This document shows positions 14,253-58,392 of a DNA stretch of 64,000 bases, one piece after another. Numbering within the stretch: position 1 is the first letter of the stretch; each line of letters begins with the position of its first letter. Location: positions 37,884 to 101,883 of the forward strand of contig NZ_SJFN01000012.1 of assembly GCF_004328075.1 (NCBI RefSeq). The letters run 5' to 3'. A model generated the notes under the pieces. The model searched no databases and had not been told where the DNA came from. It saw only the letters and a program-made list of their open reading frames with translations. The DNA is from Siculibacillus lacustris (GTDB taxonomy: Bacteria; Pseudomonadota; Alphaproteobacteria; Rhizobiales; Ancalomicrobiaceae). Made by a program: the position numbers and the translations under genes.

Positions 14253-15002
14253 TCAGGATTCGCGCGGCCCGTAGGGCGGGCGCGGAATGTCCTGATGGGC
14301 CTTGCGCAGGGCCGCCGACCAGCGTTCGCGCAGGTCGTGGAAATAGGGCTCGCCCGCCTCGATGCGATGGCTGGCCTCGGCGCCGAGGCCGTCGCGACGG
14401 ACCACCGCGAAGTCGATCGGCATGCCGACCCCGAGATTGGAGCGCATGGTGCTGTCCATCGAGATCAGCCCGAGCTTCAGCGCGTCGTGCAGATCGTAGT
14501 CGTATTTGACGGCGCGATCGAGGATCGGCTTGCCGTATTTGTGCTCGCCGATCTGCAGATAGGGCGTGTCGGCGGTGGCCTCGATGAAGTTGCCGGCGGC
14601 ATAGACCATGAACAGGCGCAGGCGCCCGCCCTTGATCTGGCCGCCGAGCAGCATGGAGACGTCGAAGGTGAGGTTCTTCTTCTCCAGCATCGGGCCGTCG
14701 AGGCGGTAGACCTCGCGGATCGCCCGGCCGACCAGCTGCGCCGAGCGGAACATCGACGGCTGGTTCCAGATCGTGTCGGTCTCGCCGGTCTCGGGGTTCT
14801 CGATGCCTTCGGTGACCAGGGACACCACCGACTGGGAGATCGCCAGATTGCCGGCGGTGGCCAGCGTCAACACGCGGTCGCCGGGCTTTTCGAAGACGTT
14901 GAGCTTGCGGAAGGTGGCGATGTTGTCGAGCCCGGCGTTGGTGCGGGTGTCGGCGATCATCACCAGTCCGTCGCGGACCAGAATTCCCACACAATAGGTC
15001 AT
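14253..15002 (-). CDS. Anbu, proteasome-type peptidase (ancestral beta subunit)
   Basis: A 249-residue N-terminal-nucleophile hydrolase of the Anbu / HslV-like family. The protein starts MTYCVGILVRDGLVMIADTR; removal of Met would expose Thr as the catalytic nucleophile. The Lys in FRKLNVF and the Asp of ADTRTNAG complete the expected site. Anbu oligomerises into an open helical ring. It belongs with the three upstream minus-strand genes (transglutaminase-like, alpha-E, ATP-grasp), the set known to travel with Anbu and suggested to make and cut a small peptide or peptide tag. The ATG at 15002 is preceded by GGGGGGAA. A plus-strand small gene separates it from the other three, so it may be transcribed on its own. 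Confidence 0.9.
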   Translation of the reverse strand: MTYCVGILVRDGLVMIADTRTNAGLDNIATFRKLNVFEKPGDRVLTLATAGNLAISQSVVSLVTEGIENPETGETDTIWNQPSMFRSAQLVGRAIREVYRLDGPMLEKKNLTFDVSMLLGGQIKGGRLRLFMVYAAGNFIEATADTPYLQIGEHKYGKPILDRAVKYDYDLHDALKLGLISMDSTMRSNLGVGMPIDFAVVRRDGLGAEASHRIEAGEPYFHDLRERWSAALRKAHQDIPRPPYGPRES

Positions 15003-15163
15003 CGTTCCCCCCGGAACACGGCCGACCGCCGAGCATGGGCCCGACCCGGACCGGCCGGCCCTCGTTTCTCGCCGGACCATAGGGATGCGGCGGGCGGCAT
15101 GCAACCGCGGGCCTCCGCGACCGCATCCGACGGCCCTCGGGGCGCTCGCGCGGCGGCGACGGT

Positions 15164-15250
15164 GTGCAGGCGGTGCGTTTCAAAGGTCCCGGCGCCGCGA
15201 TGACGGTGCCGGCGGCGGATCGGCGTGGCGTCGAAGGCGTCGGCGGACCG
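15164..15250 (-). pseudogene. Relic of a second transglutaminase-like gene (C-terminus only)
   Basis: Read on the minus strand from 15250, one frame gives SADAFDATPIRRRHRHRGAG then TFETHRLHT. This lines up with the C-terminal end of the intact transglutaminase-like protein (LDALDATPIRGVRSHRGAET then CETRITL), sharing DATPIR, HRGA and ET at the same spacing. The rest of the gene is absent. It suggests the set once had two transglutaminase genes in tandem and lost most of one. Short, so chance or repeat-driven similarity cannot be fully excluded. Confidence 0.5.
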
Positions 15251-15283
15251 GACGACGGTCGCGCGGCCGCGCCCGTCGTCCGG
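15248..15283. repeat. 36-bp near-perfect palindrome
   Basis: CCGGACGACGG at 15248 is mirrored by CCGTCGTCCGG ending at 15283, and the centre GCGCGGCCGCGC is itself a palindrome, with only two unpaired bases (TC). It can form a very stable hairpin in either strand. It sits in the divergent gap upstream of Anbu, right at the 5' border of the transglutaminase relic. Confidence 0.75.
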
Positions 15284-15567
15284 TTGCCGGCGGAGGAGCC
15301 GAATCCCGGCGAAATCGGCCGGTGGTAGCCCTTTCCCCTGGGTAGATTCCGATTCTCCCGCGTCTGCGGGCGACAGCCTATGGATGTCGGGTCGGGGCTT
15401 CGCCCGCGTGCGACGGGGCGACGACTCGGTATGGGTTCGACCGATCGCTTCGGATCGAAGCCACAGGGAAACTCGCGGAACCCGTCGCGTCGATCGGACG
15501 TTTCGGCCCGATCGGACCGGGCTCCAGGAACAGGCGCGTCGAACGGCGCGAACCCGGAGGCATCAAA

Positions 15568-15747
15568 ATGGAATATCGAATCGCGCGGATAGAATTCGAA
15601 GACCAGGGTGATCGGTCGGACTTCCTGGTGGCCCGTCTCAACGAATTTGCCAAGGACGGCTGGCGGGTCGCGAGCATCGACCTCACGCCGCATCCGTCGT
15701 TCTCGGCGAAGAGCCTTCCCGTCTTGCTCGAGCGGACGCCGAAGTGA
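15568..15747 (+). CDS. Small DUF4177-like protein
   Basis: A 59-residue protein beginning MEYRIARIEFEDQGD. The later stretch LNEFAKDGWRVASIDLTPHP resembles the DUF4177 pattern (…LNxxgxxGWxvvs…). It has a good GGAGG site 7 bases before ATG and a hairpin after its stop. It lies on the plus strand, opposite to the Anbu set on both sides. Function unknown; real coding is supported by the ribosome-binding site, codon usage and family-like pattern. Confidence 0.6.
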   Translation: MEYRIARIEFEDQGDRSDFLVARLNEFAKDGWRVASIDLTPHPSFSAKSLPVLLERTPK

Positions 15748-15771
15748 TCCCGGACGCATGAAACTCGGGGC

Positions 15772-15800
15772 CCGGACGCCGAACGAAATCGGCGTTCCGG
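15772..15800. terminator. Hairpin between converging genes
   Basis: CCGG-ACGCCGA, a 6-base loop (ACGAAA), then TCGGCGT-T-CCGG forms an 11-bp stem with one bulge, followed by TCCTCTC. It lies 24 bases after the DUF4177-like stop and 24 bases beyond the transglutaminase stop on the other strand, so it could serve both. Confidence 0.6.
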
Positions 15801-15824
15801 TCCTCTCGCCGTTTCGGCGCCTGC

Positions 15825-16637
15825 TCAGACGGCGGCGATCTCGCGCAGGGTGATGCGGGTTTCGCAGGTCTCGGCGCCGCGATGGCTGCGCACGCCGCGA
15901 ATCGGCGTGGCGTCGAGGGCGTCGAGGCCGACCGCGAGGCGGACCCAGGCATCGGTCGGGCAGCTGTTCTCGACGGCGTCGAAACCGACCCAGCCGAGGC
16001 CGGGGCCGAGATGGGCCTCGATCCACAGATGCGGGGCGCCGGCGACCGTCTCGTCGCCGCGGTAGACGTAGCCGACGACCACCCGGGTGGCGATGTCGAG
16101 GGCACGGGCCGCGGCCGCGAACAGATGGGCGAGGTCGCGGGCGGTGGCGCTGCCGGCCGCGAGGGTCTCGGCGGGACGGCGCTCCGGCGCTTCGGGATCG
16201 ATGGCGATGCGCTCGTGCAGCGCGCCCATCAGGGCATGGAGTTCGGCGATCCGGTCGGGGCCGGCCGACACCGCGGTGTCGAAGGCGAAGTCGCGCACCG
16301 GGGTCTCGATCGCGGTGCGGTCGGTGCAGCGGCCATAGGCCGACAACGGCAGGCGATCGCGGGTGTGGCGCAGCACGCCCGAGGTGTCGAGGGTGGCGAC
16401 GCGGCCGGAGGCGACGATCGACAGTTCGTCGATCGGGCCGTCGATCGAGAAGGTGTGGGTGAGATTGCCGAAGGCGTCCTCGACCGGCACCAGCCGGCAG
16501 TCCTGCGACACGTCGATGCGCCAGCTCTGGACGAGCTGGGCGTCGGTGTTGCGCGGCGTCAGGCGCAGCGTCTGGATGGCGCGGGTGGCCGGATGCTCGA
16601 AGCGGTAGACCGTTTCGTGGATGATGGCGAAACGCAT
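15825..16637 (-). CDS. Transglutaminase-like protein of the Anbu set, catalytic Cys missing
   Basis: A 270-residue cytoplasmic protein: an N-terminal beta domain (MRFAIIHETVYRFEHPATRAIQTLRLTPR, the Bact_transglu_N type) and a transglutaminase core. Active relatives read G-V-C-Q-D-x-A-H around the nucleophile; here residues 164-171 read ATARDLAH, so Ala166 replaces Cys. The other triad members, His203 (PHLWIEAH) and Asp220 (GWVGFDA), remain. It is therefore probably not a working cysteine peptidase, though it may still bind its substrate. It lies 72 bases behind the alpha-E gene in the Anbu operon. Confidence 0.85.
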   Translation of the reverse strand: MRFAIIHETVYRFEHPATRAIQTLRLTPRNTDAQLVQSWRIDVSQDCRLVPVEDAFGNLTHTFSIDGPIDELSIVASGRVATLDTSGVLRHTRDRLPLSAYGRCTDRTAIETPVRDFAFDTAVSAGPDRIAELHALMGALHERIAIDPEAPERRPAETLAAGSATARDLAHLFAAAARALDIATRVVVGYVYRGDETVAGAPHLWIEAHLGPGLGWVGFDAVENSCPTDAWVRLAVGLDALDATPIRGVRSHRGAETCETRITLREIAAV

Positions 16638-16709: not shown

Positions 16710-17654
16710 TCAGAGCAGATACTGATCGGTGATCAGGCTGGTCAGGCGGATGTTCTCCTCGACGAAGGTGCTCAGGAACTCGTGCAGGCCGCCGGCGATC
16801 ACCGTGTCGATGTCGGTCGACTCGAGATTGGTGAAGGCGGTGCGGGCGGCGCGCTGGGCGGCGCCCTGGCGGCCGTAGATCTGAGCGATCTGGTCGAGAT
16901 AGCGGGTCAGGTTCTCGTAGCACGAGGCCAGCGAGCGCGGCATCTGCGGATTGAGGATCATCAGGTCGGCGACCAGCCAGGGCTTGAGGCTCTGGCGGTA
17001 GACCCAGTGATAGGAGGTCTGGGCGGAGACGGCGCGCAGGATCGCCGACCACTGGAAGTAGTCGAGGCTGCCGCCGACCGCCGCTTCGGGGGGCAGCAGC
17101 ACGTGATACTTGACGTCGAGCAGGCGGGCGGTGGCGTCGGCGCGCTCGATGTAGACGCCGAGGCGCGAGAACCAATAGGCGTCGTTGCGGAGCATGGTGC
17201 GGTAGGCCGAGCCGTCGAAGGCCAGCGAGGTGCGCTTGACGAAGCGCAGGAAGTCGGAGAGCCGGCCGAGGTCGAGCTCGCCGAGGCCATAGCCCTTGAG
17301 TTCGAGCCAGGCGGTGTTGATCGTCTCCCACATCTCGGCGGTCAGCGCGGTGCGCACCGCGCGGGCGTTGAAGCGGGCGATCTCCAGGCAGTTCTTGATC
17401 GACGAGGGATTGGCCGGCGAGAAGGCGAGGAAGTCGACGGCGCTCTCGGCGGTCGCCTCTTCGCCGTAGACCTCGGTGAACAGCTCAAGGCAGCCGGTGG
17501 CGGCCAGCGCCGATTCCCATTCGTTGCCGGTGGCGCCGTAGCTGCTCGGCAGGGCGGCCAAGCGGTGGGCGGCGTCGATGATCCGGGCGGTGTTCTCGGC
17601 GCGCTCGACGTAGCGAGAGAGCCAGAACAGACTGTCGGCGGTGCGGCTGAGCAT
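16710..17654 (-). CDS. Alpha-E domain protein (DUF403)
   Basis: A 314-residue all-helical protein of the alpha-E family, opening MLSRTADSLFWLSRYVERAEN, the family signature. The second conserved block is FSRLGVYIERADATARLLDVKY. The family is nearly always encoded beside a circularly permuted ATP-grasp protein and a transglutaminase, and is thought to be part of a peptide-synthesis or tagging system; its biochemical activity is not established. The start at 17654 leaves 47 bases to the ATP-grasp gene upstream. Confidence 0.92.
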   Translation of the reverse strand: MLSRTADSLFWLSRYVERAENTARIIDAAHRLAALPSSYGATGNEWESALAATGCLELFTEVYGEEATAESAVDFLAFSPANPSSIKNCLEIARFNARAVRTALTAEMWETINTAWLELKGYGLGELDLGRLSDFLRFVKRTSLAFDGSAYRTMLRNDAYWFSRLGVYIERADATARLLDVKYHVLLPPEAAVGGSLDYFQWSAILRAVSAQTSYHWVYRQSLKPWLVADLMILNPQMPRSLASCYENLTRYLDQIAQIYGRQGAAQRAARTAFTNLESTDIDTVIAGGLHEFLSTFVEENIRLTSLITDQYLL

Positions 17655-17701: not shown

Positions 17702-19183
17702 TCAGGCGCGGGGGGCGGACTGCTGCTGCTGTTGCTGTTGCGACTGCTGGGCGAAGGTGCGGGCGACGTCGACGATCCAGGTGTCCTTGGTGCCGCCGCC
17801 CTGGCTCGAATTGACCACCAGCGAGCCGGATTCGAGGGCGACGCGGGTCAGTCCGCCGGGGACGATGCGCACGCCGTCGGCGCCGGTCAGCACATAGGGC
17901 CGGAGATCGACGTGGCGCGGGGCGACGCCTTCGTCGACGAAGGTCGGGCAAGTCGACAGCGCCAGGGTCGGCTGGGCGATGAACTTCTCCGGGTGGGCCT
18001 TGAGCTTGGCGCGGAAGGTCTCGATCTTGGCCTTGTCGGCCTTGGGGCCGACCAGCATGCCGTAGCCGCCGGAGCCGTCGACCTCCTTGACCACCAGTTC
18101 GGGCAGGTGGTCGAGGACGTATTTCAGGGCGTCCGGCTCGCGGCAGCGATGGGTCGGGACGTTCGACAGGATCGCGTCCTTGCCGGTGTAGAAGCGGATG
18201 ATCTCCGGCATGTAGGAATAGACCGCCTTGTCGTCGGCGACGCCGGTGCCGACGGCATTGGCCAGCGTGACGTTGCCGGCGCGGTAGGCGGCCATCAATC
18301 CGGGCACGCCGAGCACCGAATCCGGGCGGAAGGCGAGGGGGTCGATGAAGTCGTCGTCGAGGCGGCGATAGATCACGTCGACGCGCTTCGGCCCTTCGGT
18401 GGTGCGCATGTAGACGATGTTCTCGCGCACATAGAGATCCGAGCCCTCGACCAGCTCGGCGCCGAGCTTGTCGGCGAGGAACGAGTGCTCGTAATAGGCG
18501 GAATTGAACGGGCCGGGGGTCAGGAGCCCGACGGTCGGATCGGCGGCGGCGGTGCGCGGGGCCATCGACTTCAGGGTGGCGAGCAGGTCGTCGGCGTAGT
18601 TCTCGACCGGGGCGATGCGGTGGCGGGCGCAGAGTTCCGGGAACAGCCGCAGCATCACCTCACGGTTCTCCAACATGTAGGAGACGCCGGAGGGGGTGCG
18701 GGCATTGTCCTCGAGGACGTAGAAGGTGTCGGCGTCGACGCGGACGATGTCGATGCCGGCGATCGACACCCAGATGTCGTGGGGCAGGGTGATGCCCTGC
18801 ATTTCCGGTCGGTAGCAGGGATTGCGGTAGATCAGGTCCTCCGGAACGATGCCGGCCTTGACGATCTCGCCTTTGGAATAGACGTCCTTCAAGAACATGT
18901 TGAGCGCGGTGACGCGCTGGCGCAGGCCGGCGGCGAGGCGTTCCCATTCGAGGTTGGTGATGATCCGCGGCACGATGTCGAAGGGGATCAGGCGTTCCTC
19001 GCCCTCGGCGTCGCCATAGACCGCGAAGGTGATGCCGATGCGGCGGAACAGGAGTTCGGCCTCGTGGCGGCGCTGGCGCAACAACTCGACGGGTGTGTCG
19101 CGCAGCCAGGTCTCGACGATCTCGTAGCCCTGTCGGCACTCGCCGCCGAAGCCGGTCATCTCGTCGAAGGCCGTGGTCGTCAT
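17702..19183 (-). CDS. Circularly permuted type-2 ATP-grasp protein with polyglutamine tail
   Basis: A 493-residue protein of the DUF404/DUF407 ATP-grasp family, predicted to ligate a carboxylate to an amine. Typical family stretches are VLEDNARTPSGVSYMLENRE, LLTPGPFNSAYYEHSFLADK and VVKEVDGSGGYGMLVGP (nucleotide-binding part), and DLRPYVLTG near the C-terminus. The last ~15 residues are a Gln-rich tail (QQSQQQQQQQSAPRA) coded by CAG/CAA repeats, a likely slippage tract absent from the conserved core. It is the first gene of the minus-strand Anbu operon. Confidence 0.92.
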   Translation of the reverse strand: MTTTAFDEMTGFGGECRQGYEIVETWLRDTPVELLRQRRHEAELLFRRIGITFAVYGDAEGEERLIPFDIVPRIITNLEWERLAAGLRQRVTALNMFLKDVYSKGEIVKAGIVPEDLIYRNPCYRPEMQGITLPHDIWVSIAGIDIVRVDADTFYVLEDNARTPSGVSYMLENREVMLRLFPELCARHRIAPVENYADDLLATLKSMAPRTAAADPTVGLLTPGPFNSAYYEHSFLADKLGAELVEGSDLYVRENIVYMRTTEGPKRVDVIYRRLDDDFIDPLAFRPDSVLGVPGLMAAYRAGNVTLANAVGTGVADDKAVYSYMPEIIRFYTGKDAILSNVPTHRCREPDALKYVLDHLPELVVKEVDGSGGYGMLVGPKADKAKIETFRAKLKAHPEKFIAQPTLALSTCPTFVDEGVAPRHVDLRPYVLTGADGVRIVPGGLTRVALESGSLVVNSSQGGGTKDTWIVDVARTFAQQSQQQQQQQSAPRA

Positions 19184-19632: not shown

Positions 19633-19932
19633 ATGCCCATGCCGATGGTCTTCCGGAACTTCGCCGGTGCGTTCCACCAGGATGTGGTCGAGTTTCACGG
19701 CACGTTCGAAGCCGCGGTCGATGCGGTCGTCGACGAAGTTCCGGTCGGCGACTGTCGAGAACTGGCGGACTTCATCGACACACTGTTGACGAGCGGGCCG
19801 GACGTCTGTGAGCGCGTGTGGGAGGAATCGCCGACCAGTGTGCTGTTCTCGCATGCCGAAGGCTTGATGCTGATGCTCGCCGATTGTCGCGATCGGTTGC
19901 GCGCTCGGGCAGATCGAGGGCCGCGACCATGA
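19633..19932 (+). CDS. Small CDI-immunity-like protein (CdiI_2 type), copy A
   Basis: A 99-residue protein with the pattern FAGAFHQDVVEFHGTFEAAVDAVV, then ELADFIDTLL and LFSHAEGLMLMLADCRDRL. This resembles small immunity proteins of contact-dependent growth inhibition (CdiI_2), which neutralise a partner toxin in the cytoplasm. No cdiA/cdiB or toxin gene is in the window, so if the call is right it is an orphan immunity gene. ATG is preceded by GGAG 8 bases upstream. Distant relative of the two following genes; family call is tentative. Confidence 0.5.
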   Translation: MPMPMVFRNFAGAFHQDVVEFHGTFEAAVDAVVDEVPVGDCRELADFIDTLLTSGPDVCERVWEESPTSVLFSHAEGLMLMLADCRDRLRARADRGPRP

Positions 19933-20097: not shown

Positions 20098-20409
20098 ATG
20101 AAAATTCCTCCCTACTTTCAACGAGCCTCCGAAGGCTTCTATCAGGGGGCCCTCGAGTACGGTGGCCACACGGTCGAGGACTGTGTCGGCTTCGGCGTCG
20201 GATCGGTCCCTCAGAGCCAATGTCCGACGCTGCTCGAATGGCTGGACTTCCTGATCGCCTCGCCGCCCGAGGTGGTCGCCGAAGCGTGGTCGTCGCTGCG
20301 CTGCGAGTACGATTGGGAGGATCCGGAGTTCATCCGCGACATCCTGCGCCAGATGCGGGAGCTATGCGCCCACCGTGTCGCCACCGGCGGCGGCGGCATG
20401 CCGGGGTGA
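20098..20409 (+). CDS. Small CDI-immunity-like protein, tandem copy B1
   Basis: A 103-residue protein: MKIPPYFQRASEGFYQGALE, then LLEWLDFLIASPPEVVAEAW and CEYDWEDPEFIRDILRQMREL, ending GGGGMPG. The layout (aromatic N-terminal start, central helix, acidic C-terminal helix) resembles CdiI_2 immunity proteins. AAGGAGGACTCC precedes the ATG. It differs from copy B2 at 13 of 103 positions, of which 10 lie after residue 60. Function inferred only by resemblance. Confidence 0.5.
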   Translation: MKIPPYFQRASEGFYQGALEYGGHTVEDCVGFGVGSVPQSQCPTLLEWLDFLIASPPEVVAEAWSSLRCEYDWEDPEFIRDILRQMRELCAHRVATGGGGMPG

Positions 20410-20527: not shown

Positions 20528-20839
20528 ATGAAAATTCCTCCCTACTTTCAACGAGCCTCCGAAGGCTTCTATCAAGGAGCCCTCGAGTACGGGGGCCACA
20601 CGGTCGAGGATTGTGTCGGCTTCGGCGTCGGAATGGTCCTCCAGAGTCAATGTCCGGCGCTGCTCGAATGGCTGGACTTCCTGATCGCCTCGCCGCCCGA
20701 GGTCGTCTACGACGCATGGTGGTCGCTGCGCTGCGAATACAAATGGGTGGAACCGGAGTACATCCGCGAGATCCTGTGCCAGATGCGGGAGATCTGTGCC
20801 CACCGTGTCGCCACCGGCGGCGGCGGCATGCCGGGGTGA
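20528..20839 (+). CDS. Small CDI-immunity-like protein, tandem copy B2
   Basis: A 103-residue duplicate of copy B1 with the same leader, ribosome-binding site and N-terminal 35 residues. Substitutions are non-conservative around residues 61-95: A-to-Y, S-to-W, D-to-K and E-to-V relative to B1, giving VVYDAWWSL and CEYKWVEPEYIREILCQMREI. Most changes in the first third are silent. This pattern fits diversification of a binding face, as known in immunity proteins, but could also follow gene conversion of the 5' half. Confidence 0.5.
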   Translation: MKIPPYFQRASEGFYQGALEYGGHTVEDCVGFGVGMVLQSQCPALLEWLDFLIASPPEVVYDAWWSLRCEYKWVEPEYIREILCQMREICAHRVATGGGGMPG

Positions 20840-58132: not shown

Positions 58133-58392
58133 GGCGAAGTGCCCCCATTGGACGAGATCAGCGAGGCTTGGGCGAGAACCGCGTCGACGAGCATCTGGAC
58201 GATCCGTGCCGCTTCGGCGCGCGATCGCTGCAGGTCCTGCCGCGCGAGCTTCCAGACATGGACGTCGGTTGCCGCGACGAGCGCGTCGAGCGTTCGCACG
58301 CGGTCCGAGGTCGATCGTCGTCCTGCCTGGAGCCTGTTCCGATCAGGCCGAAACAGCCCGATCGACGAGACTTCGTTCCGACGGAAACCGCT
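58129..58392 (-). pseudogene. TetR-like C-terminal relic
   Basis: Between the stop of the next gene (58393) and the glycosyltransferase start, the minus strand has an 87-codon open frame ending DALVAATDVHVWKLARQDLQ-RSRAEAARIVQMLVDAVLAQA in outline. The VAATDVxVWKLxRxD pattern is that of the C-terminus of many TetR regulators. The DNA-binding part is missing. Its TGA overlaps the glycosyltransferase ATG (ATGA), the usual coupling of a regulator with its target. A GTG at 58299 could allow a 56-residue product. Family call is tentative. Confidence 0.4.

Follow-up and report, generated by a model that had tools for sequence, protein, structure and literature searches.

A decayed copy of a transglutaminase gene end beside Anbu in Siculibacillus lacustris, probably the scar of an insertion

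The window, by which we mean the whole stretch of 64,000 nucleotides of Siculibacillus lacustris DNA that was analyzed, carries on its minus strand a gene for Anbu, a proteasome-like Ntn-hydrolase (14253-15002; 249 aa; Pfam PF00227, E 2.6e-7). Adjoining it on the same strand are an intact transglutaminase-like gene, TG (15825-16637; 270 aa; PF08379 and PF01841), a gene for an alpha-E protein (16710-17654; PF04168, E 1.7e-94), and a gene for a circularly permuted ATP-grasp protein (17702-19183; PF14403 and PF04174). In gene content, order and strand, this locus corresponds to the four-gene Anbu operon (ATP-grasp, alpha-E, transglutaminase, Anbu) reported in PMC5666114 and PMC6376114, as far as the available portions of those papers describe it; as a group, the available portions of PMC5666114, PMC6376114 and PMC10318531 credit the operon to Iyer 2009. 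Against the operon as published in those portions, the window differs in two ways. A hairpin, a small antisense ORF and a relic of the TG end lie between TG and Anbu, and the TG of the window lacks the catalytic Cys. An alignment places Ala166 at the Cys site, with His203 and Asp220 kept, and thus the intact TG does not have the Cys, His and Asp together that mark an active transglutaminase.

The spacer between TG and Anbu in the window is 822 bases long. The nearest named relatives that we found are Pinisolibacter aquiterrae (Pinisolibacter belongs to the Ancalomicrobiaceae, Hyphomicrobiales) and a Siculibacillus MAG, and the Anbu protein of the window is 86-91% identical to those of six loci from the sister genera g3 and g4. 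The genus of the window is represented by one genome, and the boundaries given below for the relic and the insert rest on that single sequence. Beyond the ATP-grasp gene, there are two near-identical small tandem genes at 20098-20409 and 20528-20839 (285 of 312 bases equal, protein MKIPPYFQRASEGFYQGALEYGG...) and a further small gene at 19633-19932; neither the gene at 20098 nor that at 19633 has a PHROGs match.

A preliminary description of this DNA, made from the letters alone, had noticed what looked like the C-terminal end of a transglutaminase in a minus-strand frame within the spacer. That observation is confirmed, and the frame was named correctly: the relic, at 15140-15250 on the minus strand, is a copy, now decayed, of the final ~36 codons of TG and matches the TG end at 15825-15935, on the same strand. 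In this frame, the relic reads SADAFDATPIRRRHRHRGAGTFETH... where the intact TG reads GLDALDATPIRGVRSHRGAETCETR.... The comparison that had been proposed, 15160-15250 with 15850-15935, was made as a local alignment of 15020-15600 against the TG region; it pairs 15137-15250 with 15814-15934 at a score of 87, above every one of 500 dinucleotide shuffles (mean 28.8, sd 3.4, maximum 46). The similarity thus spans about 15137-15250, slightly more than had first been marked, and extends ~11 bases beyond the TG stop codon. A search of the genome with 15140-15824 as query gave 73.4 bits (E 2.8e-13) for the TG end. Once the self match, the other copy of the small ORF and the self-complementary hairpin are set aside, the best remaining place has 42.8 bits (E 4.5e-4). 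In frame, the relic and the organism's own TG agree at 56 of 72 bases (24 codons); the frame is then lost, and the relic has neither a stop codon nor any catalytic residue. The G+C content of 0.775 and the recurrence elsewhere in the genome of short words, for example that encoding SADAFD, might invite the suspicion of chance similarity in G+C-rich DNA, but a score 15 standard deviations above the shuffles, a genome-wide E of 2.8e-13 and the expected place and strand leave virtually nothing of it. The alignment and the genome search thus support derivation of the relic from a TG sequence.

How the relic has changed, and relative to what, can be read from the 16 differences between it and TG in those 24 codons. 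By codon position they are spread 6/6/4, with no third-position excess, and when polarized with six sister TGs, 13 of the 16 fall on the relic branch, two on the intact TG, and one is unclear. Both the even spread and the one-sided change argue that the relic has been free of coding constraint while the intact TG has remained constrained. The relic matches five sister-genus TGs at 40-44 of 72 bases, where its own TG matches the same five at 51-57 of 72. At the 15 sites where its own TG does not have the majority base of the six sisters, the relic has the state of its own TG at 12 and the sister state at one; four sites have a base in its own TG that is unlike all six sisters, and the relic shares that base at two of them. 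Because the relic groups with its own TG in this site comparison, the copy most likely arose within the lineage of the window. It is not recent, since its own change (13/72) is comparable to half of what separates the genera at third positions (0.30-0.35, both lineages together).

The position of the relic is also informative. Its end lies ~137 bases from the Anbu ATG, and in five sister-genus loci the distance from the TG stop to the Anbu ATG is 121-148 bases. Within this interval there is a promoter-like motif for Anbu at 15076-15104 on the minus strand, consisting of TTGCAT (15104-15099), 17 bases, and TATGGT (15081-15076). Ten of the 15 family loci, belonging to g1, g3, g4 and g6, have the pattern TTGC-N17-TATGGT upstream of the Anbu start codon (eight exact, two with one mismatch), and it is absent from five loci of g2, g5 and g7 and from six loci of other families; it was scored in the very sequences from which it had been derived, so its shuffle counts do not amount to an independent test. 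The motif suggests that Anbu may be transcribed from its own promoter in part of the family. Given the matching distance and the shared motif, the relic appears to occupy the ancestral place of the TG end, adjoining the same flank as in the sister genera, and the new stretch is 15251-15824.

Bordering the outer edge of the relic, the insert opens with a strong hairpin (15247-15284; 12-bp stem and four inner pairs), detected both by folding energy and as a self match on the opposite strand, with -42 kcal/mol and z-scores of -3.1 on the plus strand and -4.2 on the minus strand. The TG similarity of the relic stops where this hairpin starts. The left part of the insert (15285-15570) is followed by a small ORF of 58 aa on the plus strand, antisense to the operon (15571-15747), and by a right part (15748-15824) in which a modest hairpin (CGGACGCCGAACGAAATCGGCGTTCCG) of unremarkable stability (z -1.1 and -1.4) lies between the small ORF and the TG end. 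Neither the left nor the right part has similarity above shuffle level to TG, to the Anbu-side spacer or to the alpha-E end. A palindromic intergenic stretch, GATCGG...TTTCGGCC...GATCGG, occurs at 15476-15542 and again at 58311-58380 in the opposite orientation within the window; a genome-wide search with this pattern allowing one mismatch found one place, 58346-58365 of the window, and missed the copy at 15476 itself, which makes it a weak argument against a repeat dispersed through the genome.

The small ORF, the only ORF of the insert to be searched singly (the others overlap it or the flanking genes), has a G+C content of 0.61, compared with 0.72 for TG, and a paralogue in the same genome (G000:C28:22323-22487, 67% identity). 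It has no match in any of the other 14 family genomes searched, and matches were found in only four of 297 genomes of the order, its own included, one of the four being weak (E 0.008). The ORF thus represents a patchy family of 58-aa proteins, with homologues in G160 and G206, two genomes from a different family within the order. We considered whether it might be phage or plasmid cargo and rejected this, as it has no PHROGs family and no match among plasmids; it has no Pfam match either. No transposase, integrase or short target repeats were found in the insert. Restriction of the insert to one lineage is indicated by the absence of the small ORF from the 14 other family genomes and by the 121-148-base spacers at the five sister-genus loci.

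The preliminary description, which took the relic as the remains of a second, perhaps catalytically active, transglutaminase that had been deleted, proposed a search for relatives with two adjacent transglutaminase genes. None were found. At E <= 1e-40, which is how TGs of this subfamily were counted, a single TG is present in every one of 15 family genomes; more distant TG-like sequences do exist, the genome of the window having three of them (E 1e-12 to 1e-5). The 59 other loci with a TG each gave a single TG hit within a stretch of at most 4.5 kb. A single TG and the same spacer in relatives would, by the same description, speak against a lost gene; the relatives do have a single TG, and the Anbu side of the spacer agrees in length and motif, but the relic is in no relative examined. 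No convincing TG fragment was found in the spacers of 56 other Anbu loci (three of the 59 were left out, L064 having no spacer value and L095 and L105 having spacers of less than 20 bases). Two TG-like spacer matches were set aside: that of L075, which scored 33 where 100 shuffles reached at most 29 (z 3.8), was taken as chance among 57 loci, and that of L099, with a score of 26 against a shuffle maximum of 25 (z 3.2), as chance-level.

Other insertions appear to have occurred at this junction in relatives. In G009, of the sister genus g4, TG and Anbu stand at two contig ends (contig C18 for locus L064 and C11 for L065) with matching inverted repeats starting TGTTGATTTCCGCGGAG. These repeats seem to break TG among its last codons. 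CTCGGTC is present at both edges, and the TG end that was cut off lies next to Anbu. The assembly breaks inside the element, so that the joining of the two contigs is our inference; the arrangement seems to be what an insertion sequence would produce, the element itself being unassembled. In G010 and G014, of g6 (L062 and L063), TG and Anbu are 2.6-2.7 kb apart, with a different gene antisense between them and no relic. In G010, this gene encodes a methyl-accepting chemotaxis protein (chemotaxis receptor) according to Pfam; its counterpart in G014 resembles it, but is in two pieces. Both loci keep the promoter-like motif with one mismatch. From these three cases, a displaced TG end is possible with no second TG gene, and the TG-Anbu junction, upstream of the putative Anbu promoter, tolerates insertions.

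Considering all of this, we favor, with a probability of roughly 0.6, the interpretation that the relic is the scar of an insertion of ~570 bases at the TG end, accompanied by a duplication of that end of which the Anbu-side copy has decayed. The ancestral order would have been ATP-grasp, alpha-E, TG, a spacer of ~120-150 bases with the Anbu promoter, and Anbu. In the lineage of the window, ~570 bases comprising the hairpin, the small antisense ORF and their flanks would have entered the 3' end of TG, leaving ~110-125 bases of that end present twice, one copy completing the intact TG and the other displaced on the Anbu side, where, outside any gene, it would have been free to decay. Expression of Anbu could have continued because the insert landed upstream of its own putative promoter. 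A whole second TG would be unnecessary, and the relic matches the 3' end of TG only.

Part of the difficulty with the insertion scar is that it leaves the duplication itself unexplained, since a target duplication of ~110 bases far exceeds those usual for transposons. That insertion and duplication were one event, by whatever mechanism, is something we infer; they could be two separate events, and the insertions in G010 and G014, which left no relic, count against a single one. The window resembles islands and insertion sequences seated in the 3' ends of genes, in that the gene end is complete on one side and displaced on the other with foreign-looking DNA between, and it differs from them in having no integrase or transposase seen in the insert and in a ~110-base duplicate standing at 78% identity. 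It likewise resembles the pseudogene fragments that follow local tandem duplication, the relic being a partial and unconstrained copy beside its parent. Unlike ordinary fragments of this sort, it is separated from its parent by an insert absent from all relatives examined.

This last resemblance raises the possibility that a whole Cys-less TG was duplicated in tandem and that the Anbu-proximal copy, as a pseudogene, lost all but its 3' end, the rest being deleted or replaced by the segment with the small ORF. Such a history would also give a relic homologous to its own TG, decayed without constraint, and placed beside Anbu where the older copy would be, and if the deletion had been clean the locus would look just as it does. 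However, we consider it rather unlikely. The remaining ~700 bases of TG have left nothing recognizable in the left part of the insert, although sequence at 78% identity would be easily seen: past the C-terminal end, the core included, similarity is at shuffle level (score 23 for the rest of the spacer, and 23 both left and right of the small ORF; shuffle mean 23.4 for the left part). Neither the Anbu-side spacer nor the alpha-E end recurs in the insert, and the 15 family genomes uniformly have a single TG of this kind.

A horizontal replacement, in which the intact TG and the small ORF were acquired together and the relic is the 3' end of the resident TG, fits the geometry, with the relic at the ancestral place. 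A resident remnant, though, should not be far closer to the present TG (56 of 72 bases) than to the sister-genus TGs (40-44 of 72 at five loci), and for this reason we rejected this history as very improbable.

As for the deletion of an active transglutaminase that left the Cys-less one behind, the presence of a TG fragment next to a TG without Cys is what first suggested it, and that the relic is TG sequence still stands. The relic, however, covers only the last ~36 codons and has no catalytic region, and any former activity therefore cannot be read from it. All six loci of g3 and g4 are Cys-less, as are all seven of the clade formed by the window and these genera (g1, g3 and g4), and the relic is further from the Cys-bearing TGs of g2, g5 and g7 (32-37 of 72 bases, four loci) than from its own TG, with which it groups. 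With the whole clade Cys-less and the relic closest to its own TG, loss of the Cys most likely preceded the copying of the relic, and a copy made later would have been Cys-less too. The residues at the Cys site vary within the clade (A, V, T or P), making separate losses conceivable, but with single TGs, the older loss of Cys and no trace of a core, an active second gene is hardly credible. The relic is real, its origin appears to be ordinary, and a deleted active transglutaminase is not supported.

Loss of the catalytic Cys extends well beyond this clade. We surveyed 65 loci, consisting of 22 and a further three from earlier genome searches and 40 picked by hand, one per genus, among the matches listed (four of these come, as longer stretches, from genomes sampled before); six of the 65 were set aside for want of a TG in the stretch, which with the window leaves 60. 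Anbu is found in 190 of 297 genomes of the order, and as the survey drew on the stronger matches, genera with weaker Anbu matches are under-sampled. Among the 60 Anbu-linked TGs, the Cys is kept in 39 and absent from 21, the alignment of the Cys site in L028 being unsure because of an insertion. The replacements are P in six, A in five, V in four, S in three, and T, K and G in one each. The His is lost as well in four of the 21 Cys-less TGs and in none of the 39 with Cys, and the Asp is kept in all 60. Six changes of Cys state are needed on the Anbu tree, which is weakly supported (21 of 56 inner branches are open, and the starred branches force only one change), so the Cys has apparently been lost several times in Anbu-operon TGs. 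At Anbu identities of 0.75-0.80, the mean identity of the TGs is 0.467 for Cys-less pairs (n = 43), 0.663 for Cys-bearing pairs (n = 10) and 0.474 for mixed pairs (n = 33), pairs not being independent of one another; at 0.90-0.95 the order is reversed, with 0.726 (nine pairs) against 0.695 (two pairs). In the literature searched, which included the available portions of PMC5666114, PMC6376114 and PMC10318531 and did not extend to Iyer 2009, we found no report of Cys loss in an Anbu-operon TG.

For this organism, then, the Cys-less TG is most likely not a leftover from the loss of an active partner, and that argument about the system falls away. Lack of the Cys most likely predates the relic and is no rarity among the Anbu operons sampled in the order, and the question consequently becomes what role is played by a conserved, apparently non-catalytic TG beside Anbu. 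One answer, which we regard as evenly poised, is that repeated loss of the Cys in the Hyphomicrobiales with retention of the gene reflects a non-catalytic binding or scaffold subunit for Anbu, in which case the operon may have no need of transglutaminase chemistry.
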